Source: Congregibacter litoralis KT71 (GTDB lineage: Bacteria > Pseudomonadota > Gammaproteobacteria > Pseudomonadales > Halieaceae). From it: a stretch of 64,000 nucleotides of DNA. The stretch spans positions 434,809 to 498,808 of the forward strand of contig NZ_CM002299.1 of NCBI RefSeq assembly GCF_000153125.2, given 5' to 3'. The stretch's first letter is position 1. The number at the start of each line of letters is the position of its first letter. Made by a program: the position numbers and the translations under genes. Shown in pieces: positions 4,043 to 38,211 of the stretch. Below the pieces are notes generated by a model. It searched no databases. It was given only the letters and a program-made list of their open reading frames with translations, and was not told the origin of the DNA.

Positions 4043-6238
4043 GTGAAGACCATGAATGGAAATCAATCTGCGAGGGCTGAAATGGCCATGAACGCTGAGC
4101 GCGGGAACGCTGGCGTAATGGCATGGCGCAAGGTCCTGAGTCGATCCGCTCTGCGCGTTCTTGGGACGATGCTGGCGCTTTTAAGCTGCACTCAGGCCTT
4201 CGCTACGGCAGTTACGGATATCGAGTTCAGCTCGCGCCCCGGCAGCAAATTTGAAGTGCGCCTGGATTTTGATGAGGCGCCACCGTCAGAGTTGCAGTCC
4301 TACACTATTGAAAAGCCCGCGCGTATTTCCATCGATTTCCCCAACACAACTTCTCAGCTCGAGCGTCGTCGCTACAGCCTGCCCTACGGTAATGCCACGG
4401 GTGTTCTGGTGCTGGAATCCGGTGACCGCACGCGCCTGGTGTTGAATCTGGTGAAACTGGTTCCCTACGACACCCGTGTCGAGGGCAACAGTCTGTTTTT
4501 GACCGTGGGACAGGATGCGGACGCGGAGTACTTCAAACAGGAAAGCGATGCTAATTCGGTCAAAACCAGAATTGAGTCCGTTGCCGACGTGCGCTCCAGC
4601 ATCTCCGATCTGCAGTTCCAGCGCTCCCCCGCGGGTGAGGGTCGCTTGATCCTTCAGCTCACGGATCCTTCCGTTGACGTCAACGTGTTCAGCGAGAGCG
4701 GCGATATCAAGGTCGAGTTTCTCGATACGGATATTCCCGAGCGCCTGCTGCGCCGCTATGACGTCACGGACTTTGCCACGCCCGTAAACAGCGTGGATGT
4801 GAACACCTCCGAGCGCGGCACGGCCCTGACCCTCAAAACCAGCGGGCCCTTTGATTACCTGGCCTATCAGACAGACAATGAGTATGTCGTCAGCATCAAG
4901 CCCCTGAGCAAGAAAGAGGCGGAGGAACGACGCAACGAGTTTGCCTACGTCGGTGATCGTATCTCCCTGAACTTCCAGGACATCGAAGTGCGCGCGGTAC
5001 TTCAACTGATCGCTGATTTTACAGAGCTCAACCTGGTGGCCAGTGATACGGTATCCGGTCGCATCACCCTGCGGTTGAAGAACGTGCCCTGGGATCAGGC
5101 CCTCGAGCTGGTGCTCAAGACCAAGGGTCTGGATAAGCGTCAGATTGGCAACGTGTTAATGGTGGCGCCCGCGGCAGAGATTGCCGAGCGGGAGCGTCAG
5201 GAGATTGAAGCCAACAAGCAGATTGCAGAACTGGCGCCCCTCTCCAGTGAGTTCATCCGCATTCGCTATGCCAACGCCGCAGATATCGTGGGCCTCTTCC
5301 AGGCAGGGTCTGAGGATGGCGGAAGCCTCATCTCATCCCGCGGCTCGGTGATTGTCGAGGCGCGCACCAATTCCCTGATCGTTACGGAGACCTCCGCAAA
5401 ACTGGCCGAGATTCGGGAGCTCATCGATCGCGTTGATATCCCCATCCGCCAGGTCATGATCGAGTCGCGTATTGTGATTGCGCAGTCCGATCTCGAGAAA
5501 GAACTGGGTATTCAGTGGGGTGGTGGTTACCTCGAGCCCGATGCCAATGGCAATATTCTGTCGGTTACGGGTGACGCTACGAATGCGGTGAACCTGAACA
5601 ACTCGGTAATTAACGGTACGCAGCCGGATCTTTCTTACCCGGGTGCTCTGTTGGTGGACCTGGGATCCGGCTCCGCAACCAGCGGTTTTGCCGTCGGCTT
5701 TACCTCCAGCGAGCTGTTTTTGACGGCAGAGCTCTCCGCCCTTGAAGCGGCGGGCAAGAGTGAAGTGGTATCCCAGCCGAAGGTGATTACCGGTGACAAG
5801 CAGCCGGCGACGATCAAGTCCGGTACGGAGATTCCTTTCCAGCAGGCGGCAGCGAGTGGCGCCACCGCCGTGCAGTTTAAGGAAGCCGTGCTGAAGTTGG
5901 ACGTTACGCCGAACATCACTCCCGATGACCGTATTCTTCTGGATCTGGTGATTAATCAGGATTCCGTGGGTGATCTTGTGCCGTCCGGTCAGGGGGGGCT
6001 GATTCCCGCTATCGATACCACCCAGCTGACGACGCAGGTACTGGTTGGCAACGGTGAGACCGTGGTCCTCGGTGGGGTGTTCCGCACGGAGAACCTGGAA
6101 ACCACCTCCAAGGTGCCGTTTTTCGGCGACCTGCCCTACGTAGGCGCGCTGTTCCGAAATGAGTCCAGCCAGCGCACGAAGACCGAAACGCTGATCTTTA
6201 TCACGCCAAGGATCCTCGCTGACACATTGCTCGATTAA
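4043..6238 (+). CDS. pilQ: Type IV pilus secretin PilQ
   Basis: Outer-membrane secretin that forms the gated pore for the pilus fibre. 731 aa. A signal-anchor-like N-terminus ends near residue 50 (CTQAFA), two AMIN domains (about 55-270) bind peptidoglycan, then come the secretin N0/STN domain (DIEVRAVLQLIADFTELNLV, about 312-331), an N1 KH-like domain (about 395-480) and the C-terminal secretin barrel with VSQPKVITGDKQPATIKSG and the signature VPFFGDLPYVGALFRN. The listed start is GTG 4043; ATG 4052 is also possible. It closes the pilMNOPQ run and is followed 82 nt later by aroK, as in pseudomonads. Confidence 0.95.
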   Translation: MKTMNGNQSARAEMAMNAERGNAGVMAWRKVLSRSALRVLGTMLALLSCTQAFATAVTDIEFSSRPGSKFEVRLDFDEAPPSELQSYTIEKPARISIDFPNTTSQLERRRYSLPYGNATGVLVLESGDRTRLVLNLVKLVPYDTRVEGNSLFLTVGQDADAEYFKQESDANSVKTRIESVADVRSSISDLQFQRSPAGEGRLILQLTDPSVDVNVFSESGDIKVEFLDTDIPERLLRRYDVTDFATPVNSVDVNTSERGTALTLKTSGPFDYLAYQTDNEYVVSIKPLSKKEAEERRNEFAYVGDRISLNFQDIEVRAVLQLIADFTELNLVASDTVSGRITLRLKNVPWDQALELVLKTKGLDKRQIGNVLMVAPAAEIAERERQEIEANKQIAELAPLSSEFIRIRYANAADIVGLFQAGSEDGGSLISSRGSVIVEARTNSLIVTETSAKLAEIRELIDRVDIPIRQVMIESRIVIAQSDLEKELGIQWGGGYLEPDANGNILSVTGDATNAVNLNNSVINGTQPDLSYPGALLVDLGSGSATSGFAVGFTSSELFLTAELSALEAAGKSEVVSQPKVITGDKQPATIKSGTEIPFQQAAASGATAVQFKEAVLKLDVTPNITPDDRILLDLVINQDSVGDLVPSGQGGLIPAIDTTQLTTQVLVGNGETVVLGGVFRTENLETTSKVPFFGDLPYVGALFRNESSQRTKTETLIFITPRILADTLLD

Positions 6239-31696: not shown

Positions 31697-32983
31697 TCAG
31701 CGGTGGGTCTGCCTTTGGGCGGACTCCGCCGCGGTCAACTTGGGCCAGCGCCTGCTGAGTGCGTTGATGAGTTTCAGCGTGCGAAATCCGTCGAGCCACT
31801 GATGATACTGATCGATAAATGCGCCCTGGTCGGCGCATTGTTTTTTTGCGTGCTCCAAAAAGTTTTCCAGTCCCAAATGGATTACCGCAGTTAGCAGTTC
31901 GGGATGATTGTTAAGCTGCGCGGCAAGGTCCTCGACCTTGCTGCCGGGGAAACCATGGTCCTCCACGAAGCGAATAAGCGCAGCCAGGGCCTCAAAACAT
32001 CGCGGGTCATAAAAGAGCGCGACGGACTCCGGCTGATCTGAAGACAATAGCCGAGCCATCGCGGGTCCCGTGCCAAAAGGCACCCGGCTCGACAGGCGGG
32101 CTGACAATCGCAGGGGCTCGCAATGCGGCGTGTGCACGCTGCCATGCTTTGCCACCTTGTTGAGAAGGTAAAAATCCTCGCCCGCCGCGCGGCGTGGAAA
32201 ACCTCGCACCAATGCGTACGCATCGGTTTTAACGGCGATACAGCTGCCGATCGTGTGAAACGCATAGGGTGAGCGAGCCTTCCGGAGCCCCTCTACGTAG
32301 TGATGAAGATACGCTTCGTATAAAGCTATCGCCCGCCGCTCACGGGCATCTGCAGGGGGGATGTGCTCAAAGGGGTAGGTGAGCGCCACCATCTTGTTGT
32401 CCCCTTGTACCGCTCGCGCCGCTGCAAAATAGTCCGCTGGCAATATCGCGTCGGCATCGCTGCAGTGAATCCATGGGCTGGTGACGAATCCGCCTGCGCT
32501 CAGAGCCAGGGCGATATCGCAGCCGATTTTCCGGGCCAGACCCACACCTTCTTTCTGAGGCAGGGGCTCGGCTCTCTCCACGAGGAGGATGTGATTGCCG
32601 CTTCCCTCGTATTTTTCTGCGCTTTTTTCCTCGCCTCTTTCCTCGCTTCTTCCCTCGCCTCTTTTTTCACCGAACTCATAGAGCCTGCTGTTGGCCTGGG
32701 GGTAATGTCCCAGGGCCTTGAAACAGCTGAGGCTATTGCGAAGGGCATCGTTACAGTGAGGGTCAGCTTCCGTGTCGGGGCGATTCAGTACCAGGATTAA
32801 CAAAAGCTGTGAAAACTGCTGGAGACTGTTGAGGAGTGCCGCGTTTTCTTTGTAGGCGGGGATAACAAGAACCTGTTGCCAGGGAGGTGACGTCGGTCCG
32901 TTCTGCGCCCCGGTGAGCGCTTCTAAAATCGCCGGCGCTTCAGGAGCGGCATAGCGCTCGAGATACTGCCGGACTACCTTCAA
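31697..32983 (-). CDS. Family 2-like glycosyltransferase, unassigned
   Basis: 428 aa. It has a GT-A-type beginning (QQVLVIPAYKENAALLNSL, about 36-54), GVGLARKIGCDIALALS, and the DxD-like motif WIHCSDADAILPADYFAAA, followed by GEDFYLLNKVAKHG. This resembles glycosyltransferase family 2 proteins acting on unknown acceptors. A charged low-complexity insert (about residues 105-130) is encoded by three in-frame 12-bp repeats. It overlaps miaE by 4 nt (ATGA). Confidence 0.65.
   Translation of the reverse strand: MKVVRQYLERYAAPEAPAILEALTGAQNGPTSPPWQQVLVIPAYKENAALLNSLQQFSQLLLILVLNRPDTEADPHCNDALRNSLSCFKALGHYPQANSRLYEFGEKRGEGRSEERGEEKSAEKYEGSGNHILLVERAEPLPQKEGVGLARKIGCDIALALSAGGFVTSPWIHCSDADAILPADYFAAARAVQGDNKMVALTYPFEHIPPADARERRAIALYEAYLHHYVEGLRKARSPYAFHTIGSCIAVKTDAYALVRGFPRRAAGEDFYLLNKVAKHGSVHTPHCEPLRLSARLSSRVPFGTGPAMARLLSSDQPESVALFYDPRCFEALAALIRFVEDHGFPGSKVEDLAAQLNNHPELLTAVIHLGLENFLEHAKKQCADQGAFIDQYHQWLDGFRTLKLINALSRRWPKLTAAESAQRQTHR
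32629..32664. repeat. In-frame 12-bp triple repeat inside the glycosyltransferase gene
   Basis: CCTCGCCTCTTT, CCTCGCTTCTTC, CCTCGCCTCTTT (plus strand) in direct succession. On the coding strand they give four-residue units of the kind KRGE/GRSE/ERGE. Copy-number changes would keep the frame. Confidence 0.75.
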
Positions 32984-33603
32984 TGCAAGGCGGCGCGCAG
33001 GGGCAGAGATCGCACAATCGCCGCCTCGTCTTCCAGTAACTCCTGCCAGCGTTCTGCAACGACGTCCTCGGGGAAGTATCGCTCCGCAAGTCCATAAAAA
33101 AGTTCGAAGTGCCGTTCTTCCGAGCGCGCAATCGCCCGATAAAACTTATGCAGGGGTCCGGACGCCAGAGCCTCCGCAACAAGGGCAAAGCGTTCGGCGC
33201 CTCTGGCTTCAATGATGCCTGCGGTGAGCAGGCGGTCTAATAGATATACCTCCTTACCATCGCGAATGGACTTTCGAAAACGACCGACGTAGGGATCTTT
33301 TTGATCGGGTGCCGTGCGTTGGCCCCGCTGGTGGATCCACTTGACGACTTCGCGATAGTGCGACAGTTCTTCAACGGCCAGATCCGCCATGGCTTCTACC
33401 AGTTCGGGGCGGTCAGGGTAATGGGAGAGCATGGAGACCGCCATGCCCGAGGCTTTTTTTTCAGCAGCGGCATGATCCAGCAGAAACTGATCAAAGTCTC
33501 CCATCACAACATCCACCCAGCCCCTGGGGGTGGGGAACAGTAGAGGAGTGATGAAAGGGGCGTCCTTCGGGGGCGATTCCCGTTGCGCCTGCGATGAGGC
33601 CAT
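32980..33603 (-). CDS. miaE: tRNA-(ms2io6A)-hydroxylase
   Basis: Diiron enzyme that hydroxylates the isopentenyl group of 2-methylthio-N6-isopentenyladenosine at tRNA position 37. 207 aa. Ferritin-like four-helix bundle with iron ligands in DHAAAEKKASGMAV, LAVEELSHYREV, IEARGAERFALVAEAL and ARSEERHFELFYGLAERYF (two ExxH-type pairs). Its start overlaps the crotonase stop and its end overlaps the glycosyltransferase start. Confidence 0.92.
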   Translation of the reverse strand: MASSQAQRESPPKDAPFITPLLFPTPRGWVDVVMGDFDQFLLDHAAAEKKASGMAVSMLSHYPDRPELVEAMADLAVEELSHYREVVKWIHQRGQRTAPDQKDPYVGRFRKSIRDGKEVYLLDRLLTAGIIEARGAERFALVAEALASGPLHKFYRAIARSEERHFELFYGLAERYFPEDVVAERWQELLEDEAAIVRSLPLRAALH

Positions 33604-34313
33604 CAGTTGCTCGCGGCGATGGCCGAGTCGCCCGCCTCAAAGTCCCGGCGAAGGGCTTCTTCTAGACTCGCCATCATAGGCTCTCGGACGCGCGCCTTAG
33701 TGGCCTTGTGAGCGGCCATGTTTAAGGCGCTGAAACCCTCGGCGAGTTCCACCGCGCGATGGATGAGTTGATCGGCCTCCACCGCCTCGTCCAGATAGCC
33801 GGCACTCACGGCGCTGTCGGGGTCATAAACATGAGCGAGGCCCACGGCGTCGTTGATCTGCGTTTCGTCGAGGCGCGCCCGGGCCAACTCGATGCCAAAC
33901 CATGGCAGGGTCATACCGATGGCGACCTCATTCAGGCCCAGCTTGTAATTCCCTTTCATGCCTACGCGATAGTCCGCTGACAGGCACAGGAGTGCGCCCA
34001 TGGCCAAGGCATGGCCGCTCACCGCCAGCACCACGGGGGTGCTGAAAGACAGCAGGCGCACGGAGAGCTCTGCGCCGGTGCGCAGGAGTCTTATCATGGG
34101 CTCACCACCTGCGCCCATGACCGACAGGTCAAAGCCCGCAGAAAACTTGCCCGGTCGACCGGCGATGATCACCACTTTGCCCGTTGCCTCCGCAGTATCC
34201 AGGGCTGCATTCAGGGCGTCGAACATGTCAAAAGACAGGGCGTTTGCCTTGCCATCGTCCATGGTGATGAGGGTGTAGTGTTCGTTTTCCTGCGTGGTGA
34301 CGAGTTCTGTCAT
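33603..34313 (-). CDS. Enoyl-CoA hydratase/isomerase family protein
   Basis: 236 aa, a little short for a crotonase. Oxyanion-hole segments are FSAGFDLSVMG (first) and LAMGALLCLSADYRVG (second); NYKLGLNEVAIGMTLPWFGIELAR is the third conserved block. The usual catalytic Glu pair is only partly recognisable, so hydratase activity is not assured. Overlaps miaE by one base. Confidence 0.85.
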   Translation of the reverse strand: MTELVTTQENEHYTLITMDDGKANALSFDMFDALNAALDTAEATGKVVIIAGRPGKFSAGFDLSVMGAGGEPMIRLLRTGAELSVRLLSFSTPVVLAVSGHALAMGALLCLSADYRVGMKGNYKLGLNEVAIGMTLPWFGIELARARLDETQINDAVGLAHVYDPDSAVSAGYLDEAVEADQLIHRAVELAEGFSALNMAAHKATKARVREPMMASLEEALRRDFEAGDSAIAASN

Positions 34314-35029: not shown

Positions 35030-35959
35030 TCAGCGATCAAAAATCGGCGTGACCACATCACTGAAAGACTCGGTCATTCGCTCGCGTATCAGCGTCGCCA
35101 GCGCCTGATAGAGGTGTCTGACCGGGCTTCCGTTGCGATATATCAGCGCGTGCTCCCGATAAAGCCGCGCCCCCTCGATGCGGATAACATCCAGCTCCTC
35201 GGGACGATGGATTTCCGAGCGGATGTACAGCGCCGGTAAAAAGGCGACGCCCATGCCCATAACGACCATTTGCCGCAAGGTGTCGAGGCTGGTGCCTTCG
35301 TAGTCGCGGTTCAGCACCGCGCCTGTGCGCTCGCATATGCGCTGGACTTCCTGGTGAAGTTGATGACGCTCGTCAAGGCTCAGAATACTCATGCCCGCCA
35401 GTTCCTGCTCCTGAAGCACGCCATCCACGGCCAGGCCTGACTCCTTTGAGGCAACCAGCAGCAGGGGCTCGCGAAACAATACGTCCACGGCCAGGCTGCT
35501 CGATCGCAGGGGCAGAGGCACTAGCGCCAGATCATGGCGTCCTTCCTTTACTCCCGCTTCCAGCTGGCTGGGAGGTTCTTCGCGCACGTAGAGCTTCAGG
35601 CGATCGAACTGTTTATGGATGGCCGGGACAATGTTCGGGAGTAGATAAGGGCCAAGCGTGGGAGGCACGCCCATACGATGGGTTGAGGCCGCGGTATCCG
35701 AGAGGGTGTGGGCGAGCTCCTGCATCTCGTGCCATTGACCGATGAGCTGCTTGGTCACCGGCAGCAGCTGTCGACCCGCAGGTGTGAGCTGGGTTATCCG
35801 GCGGCTGCGCTCAAAGAGGGTCACCCCAAGACTTTTCTCCAGGGCAGCGAGCTGGGTGGAGAGGGTCGGCTGGGCAATATCCAGTTTATCGGCGGCGCGG
35901 CGAATGGACTGCGTTTCCGCTACCGCCTGAAAATACTGAATCTGCTTGATTGTTGCCAT
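35030..35959 (-). CDS. OxyR-like LysR-family regulator lacking the peroxidatic cysteine
   Basis: 309 aa. The N-terminal winged HTH is QYFQAVAETQSIRRAADKLDIAQPTLSTQLAALEKSLGVTLFERS. The effector domain resembles OxyR throughout: TLGPYLLPNIVPAIHKQF, LDTLRQMVVMGMGVAFLPAL, HALIYRNGSPVRHLYQAL. At the OxyR redox loop the E. coli pattern GHC(199)LRDQAMGFC(208) is here RHQ(200)LHQEVQRIC(209): the peroxidatic Cys is Gln while the resolving Cys is kept. It is divergent from the SulP gene, with OxyR-type boxes directly upstream, so autoregulation and control of SulP are likely. Ligand or redox input unknown. Confidence 0.88.
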   Translation of the reverse strand: MATIKQIQYFQAVAETQSIRRAADKLDIAQPTLSTQLAALEKSLGVTLFERSRRITQLTPAGRQLLPVTKQLIGQWHEMQELAHTLSDTAASTHRMGVPPTLGPYLLPNIVPAIHKQFDRLKLYVREEPPSQLEAGVKEGRHDLALVPLPLRSSSLAVDVLFREPLLLVASKESGLAVDGVLQEQELAGMSILSLDERHQLHQEVQRICERTGAVLNRDYEGTSLDTLRQMVVMGMGVAFLPALYIRSEIHRPEELDVIRIEGARLYREHALIYRNGSPVRHLYQALATLIRERMTESFSDVVTPIFDR

Positions 35960-35971
35960 TGGGAGCTGACC

Positions 35972-36001
35972 ATAGGGGGCTGCTATATAGGTAAAAACTA
36001 T
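35972..36001. promoter_or_regulatory. Two abutting OxyR-type operator boxes
   Basis: ATAGGTAAAAACTAT (35987-36001) matches the OxyR half-operator consensus ATAGnTnnnAnCTAT at every specified position. Directly before it, ATAGGGGGCTGCTAT (35972-35986) keeps the ATAG-N7-CTAT frame but not the inner T and A. The site begins 13 nt upstream of the regulator's start codon and ends 99 nt upstream of SulP. The classical OxyR tetramer site has 7 nt between boxes; here there is none. Confidence 0.7.
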
Positions 36002-36100
36002 AACAGAAAAGCTTAGCTTGCATTTGTTTTACGTTAAGCAGGGCTCATAGTACGTATATCAGGTAAAGGATTCCCAGGCAGTTTGGGGAAGGACCCGGAA

Positions 36101-37762
36101 ATGCGATCGTTGTTAAAGTTTGATTTAAGCCACCTGCGCGGTGATGTGTACGGCGGATTGACCGCCGGTGTCGTTGCCATTCCCCTGGCGCTGGCCTTCG
36201 GTGTGGCCTCGGGACTCGGGCCCATTGCGGGCATGTATGGCGCCATCATCGTCGGTTTTTTTGCGGCGATGTTTGGCGGTACGCCCACGAACGTGTCAGG
36301 CCCCACGGGCCCCATGGTGGTGGTTCTCGCCGGTCTTTTTGCGAGCCTGTCGGGTGATGTGGGTCTGATCTTCACCGCCGTGATGCTCGCCGGTGTGTTT
36401 CAGATCATTTTTGGTGCCGTTGGCGCGGGAAACTACATTCGCCTCGTGCCCTATCCCGTGGTCTCGGGTTTTATGAGCGGCATCGGTGTGATCATTATCA
36501 TTCTTCAGGCTAACGCCTTCTTCGGCCACGAATCGCCCTCCGGTACCCTGAACGCTCTGGCTCATTTACCCACCGTGCTTTCGGACATCAACTTTTCGGC
36601 GCTGGTCGTAGGCCTGATTACGCTGACCGTTGCTTACAAGTGGCCGACAAAGTGGGGCACCTACGTACCCGGCGCCCTCGCAGCGCTGGCAATTGGTACG
36701 CTGCTCAGCCTCTTTATGCCTGCAATGCCTATTCTGGGCGATATCCCCTCAGGTTTGCCGTCATTTCATATGCCGGTGTTTGATCAGTCAGCAATGGCGC
36801 TGGTTTTGGAAGCTGCCTTTATTCTTGCGGTGCTGGGGGCGATTGACAGCCTGCTGACGTCGCTGGTGGCAGATAACATGACCCGAACCCGCCACGACTC
36901 CAACAAGGAGCTCATCGGTCAGGGCGTGGGTAACGCGGTTGCCGGCATGTTCGGCGGTATCGCTGGTGCCGGTGCAACCATGCGTACGGTCATTAATATT
37001 CGCTCGGGGGGTGTCACACGCCTATCCGGGATGATCCACTCCGTGGTACTGGCTGCGGTTGTACTGGGTGTGGGCTCCGTTGCCTCCGTCATTCCCCATG
37101 CGGCTCTCGCAGGCGTGCTGGTGAAGGTGGGCATGGACATCATCGATTTCAGCTACCTCAAGCGTGCGCACCGCGGTCCCCGTTGGGATCTGGCGCTCAT
37201 GGCGCTGGTTCTGGGGCTCACGGTGTTTGTTGACCTGATTACTGCGGTTGGTGCTGGCGTCGTACTTGCCGCACTCGCCTACGTGCAGCAGGTCGCCAAG
37301 ATTCAGCTTGAGGAACTCGCCTCACGGCCGAACGCGCAGACCTCCGAAGAGGAACGAGAGTTGCTGGATCGTCTGGGTAACCAGGTAACTCTTTTTGAAT
37401 TCGGTGGGCTCCTGAGTTTTGGCGCCGCGGCTGATGTGGGTCACCACGTTCGGGAGCGCTACAAAGAGGCCACACACTCCATCATCCTCGACTTTAACCG
37501 CGTGCCCTTCCTGGACGTGTCCGCCGCTCGAGCCGTCGAAACCATTGCCGATGACGCACATAAGGCTGGCAAGCGGGTGTACATCACCGGGATGGCGCAA
37601 TCGATTCAAGACACCCTCAGCAGTCTCGGGTCCGATGAGAGCCTTCACGATGACGCTCACTTTGAAACCCGACTGGAGGCCCTGCAGGCGATTGCCGAGC
37701 GCTCGGGCATTGATTATCGCGGTCGCTCAGCGCGGTTGGTCTCGGCCGCTGCGGCCCATTGA
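36101..37762 (+). CDS. SulP-family inorganic anion transporter with STAS domain
   Basis: 553 aa from ATG 36101 (AAGGA 7-8 nt upstream). Residues about 15-410 hold the SulP membrane region: GGLTAGVVAIPLALAFGVASG, GTPTNVSGPTGPMVVVLAGLF, NKELIGQGVGNAVAGMFGGIAG. The C-terminal STAS domain (about 425-530) has ILDFNRVPFLDVSAARAVETI. SulP proteins import bicarbonate, sulfate or other anions with sodium or protons; the sequence does not decide which. The divergent OxyR-like regulator and operator suggest redox- or stress-linked control. Confidence 0.92.
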   Translation: MRSLLKFDLSHLRGDVYGGLTAGVVAIPLALAFGVASGLGPIAGMYGAIIVGFFAAMFGGTPTNVSGPTGPMVVVLAGLFASLSGDVGLIFTAVMLAGVFQIIFGAVGAGNYIRLVPYPVVSGFMSGIGVIIIILQANAFFGHESPSGTLNALAHLPTVLSDINFSALVVGLITLTVAYKWPTKWGTYVPGALAALAIGTLLSLFMPAMPILGDIPSGLPSFHMPVFDQSAMALVLEAAFILAVLGAIDSLLTSLVADNMTRTRHDSNKELIGQGVGNAVAGMFGGIAGAGATMRTVINIRSGGVTRLSGMIHSVVLAAVVLGVGSVASVIPHAALAGVLVKVGMDIIDFSYLKRAHRGPRWDLALMALVLGLTVFVDLITAVGAGVVLAALAYVQQVAKIQLEELASRPNAQTSEEERELLDRLGNQVTLFEFGGLLSFGAAADVGHHVRERYKEATHSIILDFNRVPFLDVSAARAVETIADDAHKAGKRVYITGMAQSIQDTLSSLGSDESLHDDAHFETRLEALQAIAERSGIDYRGRSARLVSAAAAH

Positions 37763-37806: not shown

Positions 37807-38211
37807 ATGACCGAAGTTAACGTAATGCAGTTTTTTCAGCGCTGGAACGATGCCCTGGCAACGGGCAACCCCGATGCGGTAACCGCCCTCTACGCCGAAG
37901 ATGCGATTCTTCTGCCGACGGTGTCCAATCAGGTGCGCCACAATCACGAAGAGATTCGCGATTACTTCGTGAACTTCCTGGCGAAAGAGCCCAAGGGCGT
38001 TATCGACGAGGCGAACATCCGCTTCCTCGCGGATGACCTGGCGATCAACTCGGGTGTTTACACCTTTACCTTTGGCGATCAGTCTCAGGTGACAGCGCGC
38101 TACACCTACCTCTATCGCAGGATTGATGGCGACTGGAAGATTGTTGAGCACCACAGTTCTGCCATGCCCGAGGTAGCCAGCGTGTCAGATCAGGAGTCTG
38201 CCGCAGCCTGA
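37807..38211 (+). CDS. NTF2/SnoaL-like protein (SgcJ/EcaC or CaMKII-association type)
   Basis: 134 aa. Cone-shaped NTF2-like fold: VMQFFQRWNDALATGNPDAVTALYAEDAILLPT, then RHNHEEIRDYFVNFLAKEPKG and DGDWKIVEHHSSAMP at the end. This pattern matches the CaMKII-association/SgcJ group, small dimeric or oligomeric proteins without a general function. AAAGGAG precedes the ATG. It lies 44 nt after sulP and just before a strong terminator, so the two are probably one transcript. Confidence 0.75.
   Translation: MTEVNVMQFFQRWNDALATGNPDAVTALYAEDAILLPTVSNQVRHNHEEIRDYFVNFLAKEPKGVIDEANIRFLADDLAINSGVYTFTFGDQSQVTARYTYLYRRIDGDWKIVEHHSSAMPEVASVSDQESAAA

Follow-up and report, generated by a model that had tools for sequence, protein, structure and literature searches.

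The stretch of DNA analysed here, 64,000 nucleotides from Congregibacter litoralis KT71 (the window), encodes an OxyR-related transcription regulator that probably still recognises DNA as OxyR does, no longer senses peroxide and has come to control bicarbonate uptake and carbonic anhydrase (CA). As it belongs to a separate group that lacks the equivalent of E. coli OxyR Cys199, and its relatives usually adjoin genes for bicarbonate uptake and CA, a role in inorganic-carbon uptake rather than oxidant defence is proposed. The regulator would bind a predicted ATAG-N7-CTAT box at 35987-36001 and would control the divergent genes for a BicA-like SulP transporter and an iota-CA, and probably its own gene as well. 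Switching would be brought about by a signal bound in the cleft of the effector domain, between its two halves and at the site of the C199/T129/D202 peroxide pocket of OxyR, and this signal would most likely report a shortage of inorganic carbon or a linked pH or Na+ state. The proposal builds on the sequence, the grouping, the gene order and the conserved box, all of which are seen directly; from them we infer the binding of the box, the direction of control, the co-transcription of SulP and iota-CA genes, and the effector. An initial annotation had treated the protein as an OxyR-like regulator that has lost its peroxidatic cysteine, and made no use of the gene order and conserved box that link it to bicarbonate transport and CA.

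The regulator and its neighbours in the window

Table 1. Features of the regulator-SulP locus, in window coordinates
Feature	Position	Strand	Basis
LysR-type regulator, OxyR-like group without Cys199, 309 aa	35030..35959	-	ATG start; Pfam HTH_1 + LysR_substrate
Gln200 codon, place of E. coli OxyR Cys199	35360..35362	-	alignment
Cys209 codon, sole cysteine, place of E. coli OxyR Cys208	35333..35335	-	alignment
Divergent intergenic region, regulator-SulP, 141 bp	35960..36100	.	same divergent order in relatives
Palindromic box ATAGGTAAAAACTAT, predicted recognition site	35987..36001	.	exact match to OxyR half-site ATAGntnnnanCTAT
SulP/SLC26 transporter with STAS, BicA-like	36101..37762	+	Pfam Sulfate_transp + STAS
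CaMKII_AD / 'SgcJ/EcaC' protein, HHSS motif	37807..38211	+	PF08332 2.2e-28; EHHSSAMPE

The regulator combines a LysR helix-turn-helix with an OxyR-type effector domain. Alignment with E. coli K-12 OxyR from NC_000913 (b3961) agrees with the initial annotation in placing a glutamine where OxyR has Cys199 and a cysteine where it has Cys208. The same glutamine is found in the three other genomes of the genus that yielded an orthologue (L014, L015, L016), which rules out a sequencing error. Because Cys209 is the single cysteine of the protein, nothing can stand in for C199 and no disulfide can form within the molecule. A replacement cysteine elsewhere in the protein, which would have refuted the annotation, is thereby ruled out, and its statement that the C199-C208 switch is unusable holds.

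By profile and by structure, OxyR ranks first. The best profile is that of OxyR (NF008361, 198.1 bits; next model 145.1 bits), and the top PDB matches, those of a fold search with the model included, are OxyR structures. The NF008361 cut-off of 329 bits was considered as an exclusion test and dropped, since the genome's own canonical OxyR (L003, 234.6 bits) falls short of it as well. The AlphaFold2 model of the regulator (mean pLDDT 89.1) superposes on 1i69 with a TM score, by target, of 0.90 and an rmsd of 2.3-2.4, and on 1i6a with 0.87 and 3.0, a slightly better match to the reduced form of OxyR than to the oxidised one. That the effector domain follows OxyR closely, as originally described, is too strong, as identity is 34% to the effector-domain structures of E. 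coli OxyR and 27% to L003.

On the divergent side, the SulP start was set at the ATG at 36101; a TTG at 36083 lies in the open frame. The best-scoring NCBIfam model of the product is BicA (NF050096, 532.7 bits, under its cut-off of 880) and its best PDB match is 6ki1 (E=5.8e-109; next 5iof, 2.5e-42). This entry, labelled a low affinity sulfate transporter in the PDB, is presumably the BicA structure, and by these similarities the SulP protein is a probable bicarbonate transporter. The product of the following gene matches 3h51 (E=9.6e-41) and the iota-CA 7c5x (E=4.4e-11, no single stretch being significant alone). The cited passages of PMC8425729 and PMC6776030 describe bacterial SgcJ/EcaC-type proteins with an (H)HHSS motif as homologues of iota-CAs; activity is reported for the homologue from Burkholderia territorii (PMC8425729) and is left open for the bacterial homologues in PMC6776030. 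By sequence, then, this product is a probable iota-CA. The genome encodes one beta-CA elsewhere. RuBisCO found no match in the genome, which leaves the bicarbonate without an evident use and counts against the bicarbonate-uptake reading. A scan of 35900-36160 found neither a sigma-70-like promoter nor a terminator, and the missing promoter likewise counts against that reading. Downstream of the regulator, at 32983-34313 on the minus strand, lie a MiaE-like tRNA hydroxylase gene and an enoyl-CoA hydratase-like gene, with no tie to the regulator seen.

Gene order across relatives

Relatives were compared as 114 DNA loci, the best-scoring ones pooled from genome, family and wider searches. The wider search kept the best 80 of at least 589 relatives, from at least 593 matching stretches, and one survey scored at most seven candidates per genome and listed those that matched at E<=1e-60 (6 of 323 genomes). 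The 114 loci are redundant: clustering at 70% identity leaves 42 groups, of which 25 include SulP and 25 include the box, and clustering at 50% leaves 11 (7 and 7). A SulP gene adjoins the regulator in 84 of the 114 (tblastn E<=1e-6). Among 80 named loci, 62 have SulP, 58 a CA (beta or iota), 53 both, and 70 at least one of SulP, CA and SbtA; SbtA occurs in three, NhaA in four, Mrp in three and SulP together with DabA in one, leaving five with none.

The CA slot is occupied by a beta-CA, an SgcJ-type iota-CA or a COG4337-type iota-CA, which are different enzymes for one reaction. Between regulator and SulP stands a beta-CA in most loci that have both a CA and SulP, and an SgcJ-type enzyme in eight; L066 and L067 have a COG4337-type iota-CA there, that of L067 matching 7c5x at E=4.1e-76. 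The iota-CA gene follows SulP instead in the window and in five close relatives (L051, L053-L056). SulP in L068 and in L096 reaches only 28% identity. At the CA place of L083 (Marinibactrum halimedae), a short ORF at 4493-4741 with weak beta-CA similarity is perhaps a decayed CA. In L094 and L163 (Pseudohaliea rubra in L094), the order regulator-SulP-DabA is accompanied by a second LysR gene and, by eye, an Mrp-like gene, a cluster that looks as if it combines two kinds of inorganic-carbon uptake.

Other partners are found in smaller sets of relatives: SbtA (Pfam Sbt_1) in L124, L126 and L130, Mrp antiporter genes in L076, L100 and L113, and NhaA in L108, L121, L122 and L128, off the divergent side in L121 and with a weak beta-CA match (33-35% identity) in two of the four. 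An alphaproteobacterial group of 11 loci has SbtA or NhaA in seven; L117-L119, named as alphaproteobacteria and lying outside that group, have SulP and a beta-CA.

Within the family of the window organism, 28 regulator places were found, and at 19 of them the 1.5-kb flank holds a divergent SulP gene. The remaining nine (L002, L032-L039) are classed here as paralogues of the L002 type. SulP is present in 24 of 81 family genomes, with the regulator beside it in 19 and absent in five. At these five loci a beta-CA precedes SulP in four, and an ArsR-type HTH gene (Pfam HTH_5) heads the pair in two of the four. These four pairs without the OxyR-like regulator are from one sister genus (L158-L161); the ArsR-type gene was confirmed in L158 and L160, where a regulator swap, the ArsR-type gene standing in for the OxyR-like one, is possible. 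A search of the flanking DNA, at most 1.5 kb long, for SulP, beta-CA and SgcJ-type CA genes found none at the 24 canonical OxyR loci.

Relation to canonical OxyR

A second, canonical OxyR, whose presence the initial annotation had proposed to check, was found elsewhere in the genome (L003, with the GHC...C motif). The genome also holds L002, a paralogue 44% identical to the window regulator and likewise with Gln at 199. L002 (G000 C1:225958-229839) adjoins RmuC, an aspartyl-protease-like gene and a PPFKR-repeat gene, and a similar set is present in seven of the nine such loci read; the aspartyl protease assignment was checked by Pfam at L002.

Cys199 occurs in none of the 114 best-scoring related loci, and position 208 is Cys in 106 of them and Ala in eight. 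In 123 aligned rows (121 proteins, E. coli OxyR and L002), residue 199 is H in 40, Q in 33, L in 17, A in 16, T in nine, V in four, R in one, a gap in two and C in one, the last being E. coli OxyR. MAFFT settings differed between the alignments of these rows, of the 114 loci and of the pocket residues below. Both cysteines are present in all 25 canonical OxyR proteins compared, namely E. coli OxyR and those of the 24 loci that L003 retrieved from the window's family.

A quick tree built on 80 rows, eight of them outgroup LysR-type regulators (LTTRs), puts the 60 rows lacking C199 in one group (SH-aLRT 100). A careful tree of 75 rows, which leaves out four of the outgroups and L153c and retains four outgroup LTTRs, recovers the group at 81/96 (bootstrap/SH-aLRT) and places canonical OxyR beside it at 91/41. 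L002-type paralogues are nested inside the C199-less group in both trees, and both that group and canonical OxyR are separate from the outgroup LTTRs. Since the C199-less proteins form one group, Cys199 has long been missing, and throughout the group, which may on these sequences be either sister to OxyR or derived from within it. A recent loss of Cys199 in a true OxyR, as the wording of the initial annotation implied, is rejected, given this grouping and the presence of a canonical OxyR in the same genome. In the tree it had called for, OxyR neighbours the group, apart from the outgroup LTTRs, and the group is separate from canonical OxyR (bootstrap only 81).

The sensor pocket

Pocket residues were compared in a module set of 88 loci, comprising those that were not hand-placed as canonical, paralogue (12), alphaproteobacterial (11) or Mrp-linked (3) and including L125, within whose 6.7 kb none of the sought partner genes lies. 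We take T100, T129, H198 and D202 to be the peroxide pocket residues of OxyR. The window regulator keeps T100 and H198 and has Pro for T129 and Gln for D202. Across the 88 module proteins, T100 and H198 are each kept in 86, R266 in all 88 and C199 in none; T129 is replaced by Pro in 77, A147 by Pro (48) or Thr (34), and A233 by Met in 84, so the peroxide pocket is altered at several places. The stretch E220-D225 (EGTSLD) is invariant in the set, and D or E stands at 202 in 11 of 11 alphaproteobacterial relatives. In the subgroup made up of L076, L100 and L113, residue 199 is Ser; these three adjoin Mrp Na+/H+ antiporter genes and have the same box upstream.

An alignment of 27 proteins has 54 invariant columns, 41 of them in the effector domain. 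Such constraint suggests a ligand other than peroxide, and among the three readings offered at the outset (constitutive activity, another molecule, Cys209 alone) the sensing of another molecule is the best supported.

The ATAG-N7-CTAT box

The intergenic box agrees with the OxyR half-site consensus as it is quoted in PMC10580950. It starts 28 bp before the regulator start codon and ends 100 bp before that of SulP. No other site in the window comes within one mismatch of the consensus; 36 of 100 window shuffles hold at least one match as good, so the box is weak on its own. Exact ATAGNTNNNANCTAT sites number three in the genome, as does a reversed-pattern control, and two of the three adjoin the two C199-less OxyR-like genes, the third lying inside an ORF. 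As the genome count equals that of the control and shuffles match equally well, only placement and conservation speak for the box.

Comparison across the module set makes the case strong: 59 of 88 loci have an exact ATAG-N7-CTAT in the 160 nt upstream of the regulator (shuffled mean 0.33, maximum 2), and the other 29 count against the preferred reading. Other spacers from 3 to 12 yield 0 or 1 per spacer in this set. At the same distance, the exact box is present in 8 of 10 alphaproteobacterial loci (L115, with less than 100 nt of upstream DNA, being dropped), in 3 of 3 Mrp-linked loci and in 0 of 12 paralogue loci. None of the 24 canonical OxyR loci, and none of the five SulP loci that lack the regulator, has it anywhere in the locus. 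The related pattern GATA-N9-TATC was counted in 49 of 88 module loci, against a shuffled mean of 0.44, and in 4 of 10 alphaproteobacterial loci, all three Mrp-linked loci and none of the 24 canonical ones.

Fifty-seven aligned sites extend the box to GTGATAG-N7-CTATCAC, with flanks conserved at 45-80%; the window site has T and A where the consensus flanks have G and C. The same consensus shows a second CTATC-like element about 18 bp further on. LysR regulators have a paired-site layout at promoters, and this element fits such a pair as expected; in the window, a second, ABS-like box is not clearly visible. Paralogue loci carry one exact site elsewhere in the locus in 11 of 12. In seven of the nine read it lies between the aspartyl-protease-like gene and the PPFKR/PPYKR-repeat gene, as it does at L002 (PPFKR), and in L036 and L037 it lies directly past the 3' end of the regulator.

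Alternative explanations

The conserved cysteine invites a different account, a one-cysteine redox sensor in which Cys209 is oxidised to a sulfenic acid or a mixed disulfide and which is now wired to the CA-SulP genes. The cysteine is invariant in alignments of 27 and of 51 closer proteins (27/27 and 51/51) as well as being present in most of the 114 loci, H198 and R266 are retained, and LsrB, an LTTR other than OxyR, is described in the cited part of PMC11975290 as using other cysteines. Such a sensor nevertheless appears improbable: Ala takes the place of Cys208 in four module-linked loci (L107, L117-L119) and four paralogues, there is a single cysteine and hence no intramolecular partner here and in 50 of 88 module proteins, and the window regulator is changed at T129 and D202. 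E. coli CynR also has a Cys at the 208 position, so packing may account for the residue, and Cys209 may have a structural role. To our knowledge, CynR is not a peroxide sensor. What stands of the earlier suggestion that Cys209 might work alone is thus the wide retention of the cysteine; the eight Ala loci and CynR speak against the rest. A constitutive, ligand-independent activator related to OxyR would agree with the missing peroxidatic cysteine and with the wide variation of residue 199 (H, L, Q, A, T and others), but the invariant columns of the effector domain go beyond what a constitutive factor would need, and we regard this account as less probable still. Degeneration into a drifting, functionless OxyR can be all but dismissed: it has the loss of the key cysteine in its favour, and against it are reading frames listed without internal stops, the invariant positions and a gene order kept over several families and a few phyla.

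A regulator that answers alkaline pH or sodium, with bicarbonate uptake as one Na+-linked task among others, overlaps with the preferred reading and is a tentative competitor to it. BicA and SbtA are Na+-dependent, Pfam describes Sbt_1 as such, and relatives stand beside NhaA (4), Mrp (3) and SbtA (3) with the exact box within 250 nt upstream in nine of these ten. Against a primary role in Na+ or pH control, SulP is the partner in 62 of the 80 named loci, NhaA or MnhB is found in none of those 62 stretches, and CA has no direct Na+ link. The inorganic-carbon state fits the common neighbours, and pH or Na+ fits the relatives beside NhaA, Mrp and SbtA; the NhaA and Mrp neighbours point to a broader part in ion or pH control and are counted against control of bicarbonate uptake and CA as the preferred reading. 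Also weighed against it are the wide retention of the Cys208 equivalent, the SulP score below the BicA cut-off, the redundancy of the loci compared and the pdh target of the Magnetospirillum OxyR-Like protein described below.

Implications

A broader reading, to which we give an even chance, is that this widespread LysR group is a regulator family in its own right for inorganic carbon (and pH/Na+), arisen from OxyR or sister to it, with a redesigned sensor and OxyR's box, which in marine heterotrophs would govern bicarbonate uptake with exchangeable CAs, perhaps with cross-talk from true OxyR acting on these boxes too. Several proteins of the group are named 'hydrogen peroxide-inducible genes activator' in databases, so the group is probably counted among peroxide sensors in many marine genomes. 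If control of bicarbonate uptake holds, these proteins would be its regulators in bacteria of which some, like KT71, have no RuBisCO match, and in which such control is little known. It would also mean that the OxyR scaffold has been rewired while its DNA code stayed the same. The variation of residue 199 within the group provides a natural set for asking what else the pocket senses.

Comparison with known systems

OxyR itself (E. coli b3961; PDB 1i69/1i6a, 4x6g, 6g4r) shares with the regulator the LTTR architecture, the effector fold, T100, H198 and R266, the cysteine at position 208 and the ATAG-N7-CTAT box, here as a predicted site. The regulator differs in the missing peroxidatic cysteine, in Pro for T129 and Gln for D202, in belonging to a separate group and in having bicarbonate transporter and CA genes as neighbours. 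E. coli CynR is likewise a LysR regulator beside a CA gene (cynT), with a Cys at position 208. It has a role in cyanate metabolism, its profile scores 131.8 bits on the window regulator, and in neither tree does it join the OxyR and C199-less rows. CmpR, CcmR and CbbR are LysR regulators too, of genes for the uptake and fixation of CO2, and CcmR (5y2v) leads the non-OxyR structures found in the fold search with the regulator model; their ligands are metabolites according to the cited part of PMC3401165. A CbbR-type regulator is ruled out by profile scores (TransRegCbbRRhodb 94.9 bits against 198.1 for OxyR), and there is no RuBisCO match in the genome either. LsrB, the redox LTTR of Rhizobiales, was set apart by its description, the cited part of PMC11975290 giving its cysteines at other numbers.

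The neighbouring genes have a counterpart in the can2-sulP cluster of Acidithiobacillus ferrooxidans, where a CA gene likewise adjoins SulP. As described in the portion of PMC6458275 cited here, its transcripts fall as CO2 rises, bicarbonate uptake is proposed for it, and sulP-can microsynteny extends to many organisms; unlike the window module, it comes with no mention of OxyR (0 occurrences in the main text of PMC6458275). Mention of the pairing of regulator, CA and SulP was not found in the literature searched, which was screened mostly at listing level. A precedent for the regulator is the OxyR-Like protein of Magnetospirillum gryphiswaldense (MGMSRv2_2107), which, in the cited part of PMC5308003, resembles E. 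coli OxyR, lacks the functional cysteine ('Cys201') and has a new function: its footprint covers GATA-N9-TATC both at its own promoter and at pdh, and it controls the pyruvate dehydrogenase operon (PMC5308003). The likeness to the window regulator is one of description, and the target is pdh rather than carbon uptake. The protected motif is the core of the group consensus GTGATAG-N7-CTATCAC. By analogy, and as far as the cited part of that paper goes, the footprint supports the binding of such a palindrome by a Cys-less OxyR-like protein and would show that regulators of this kind can control targets besides carbon uptake.
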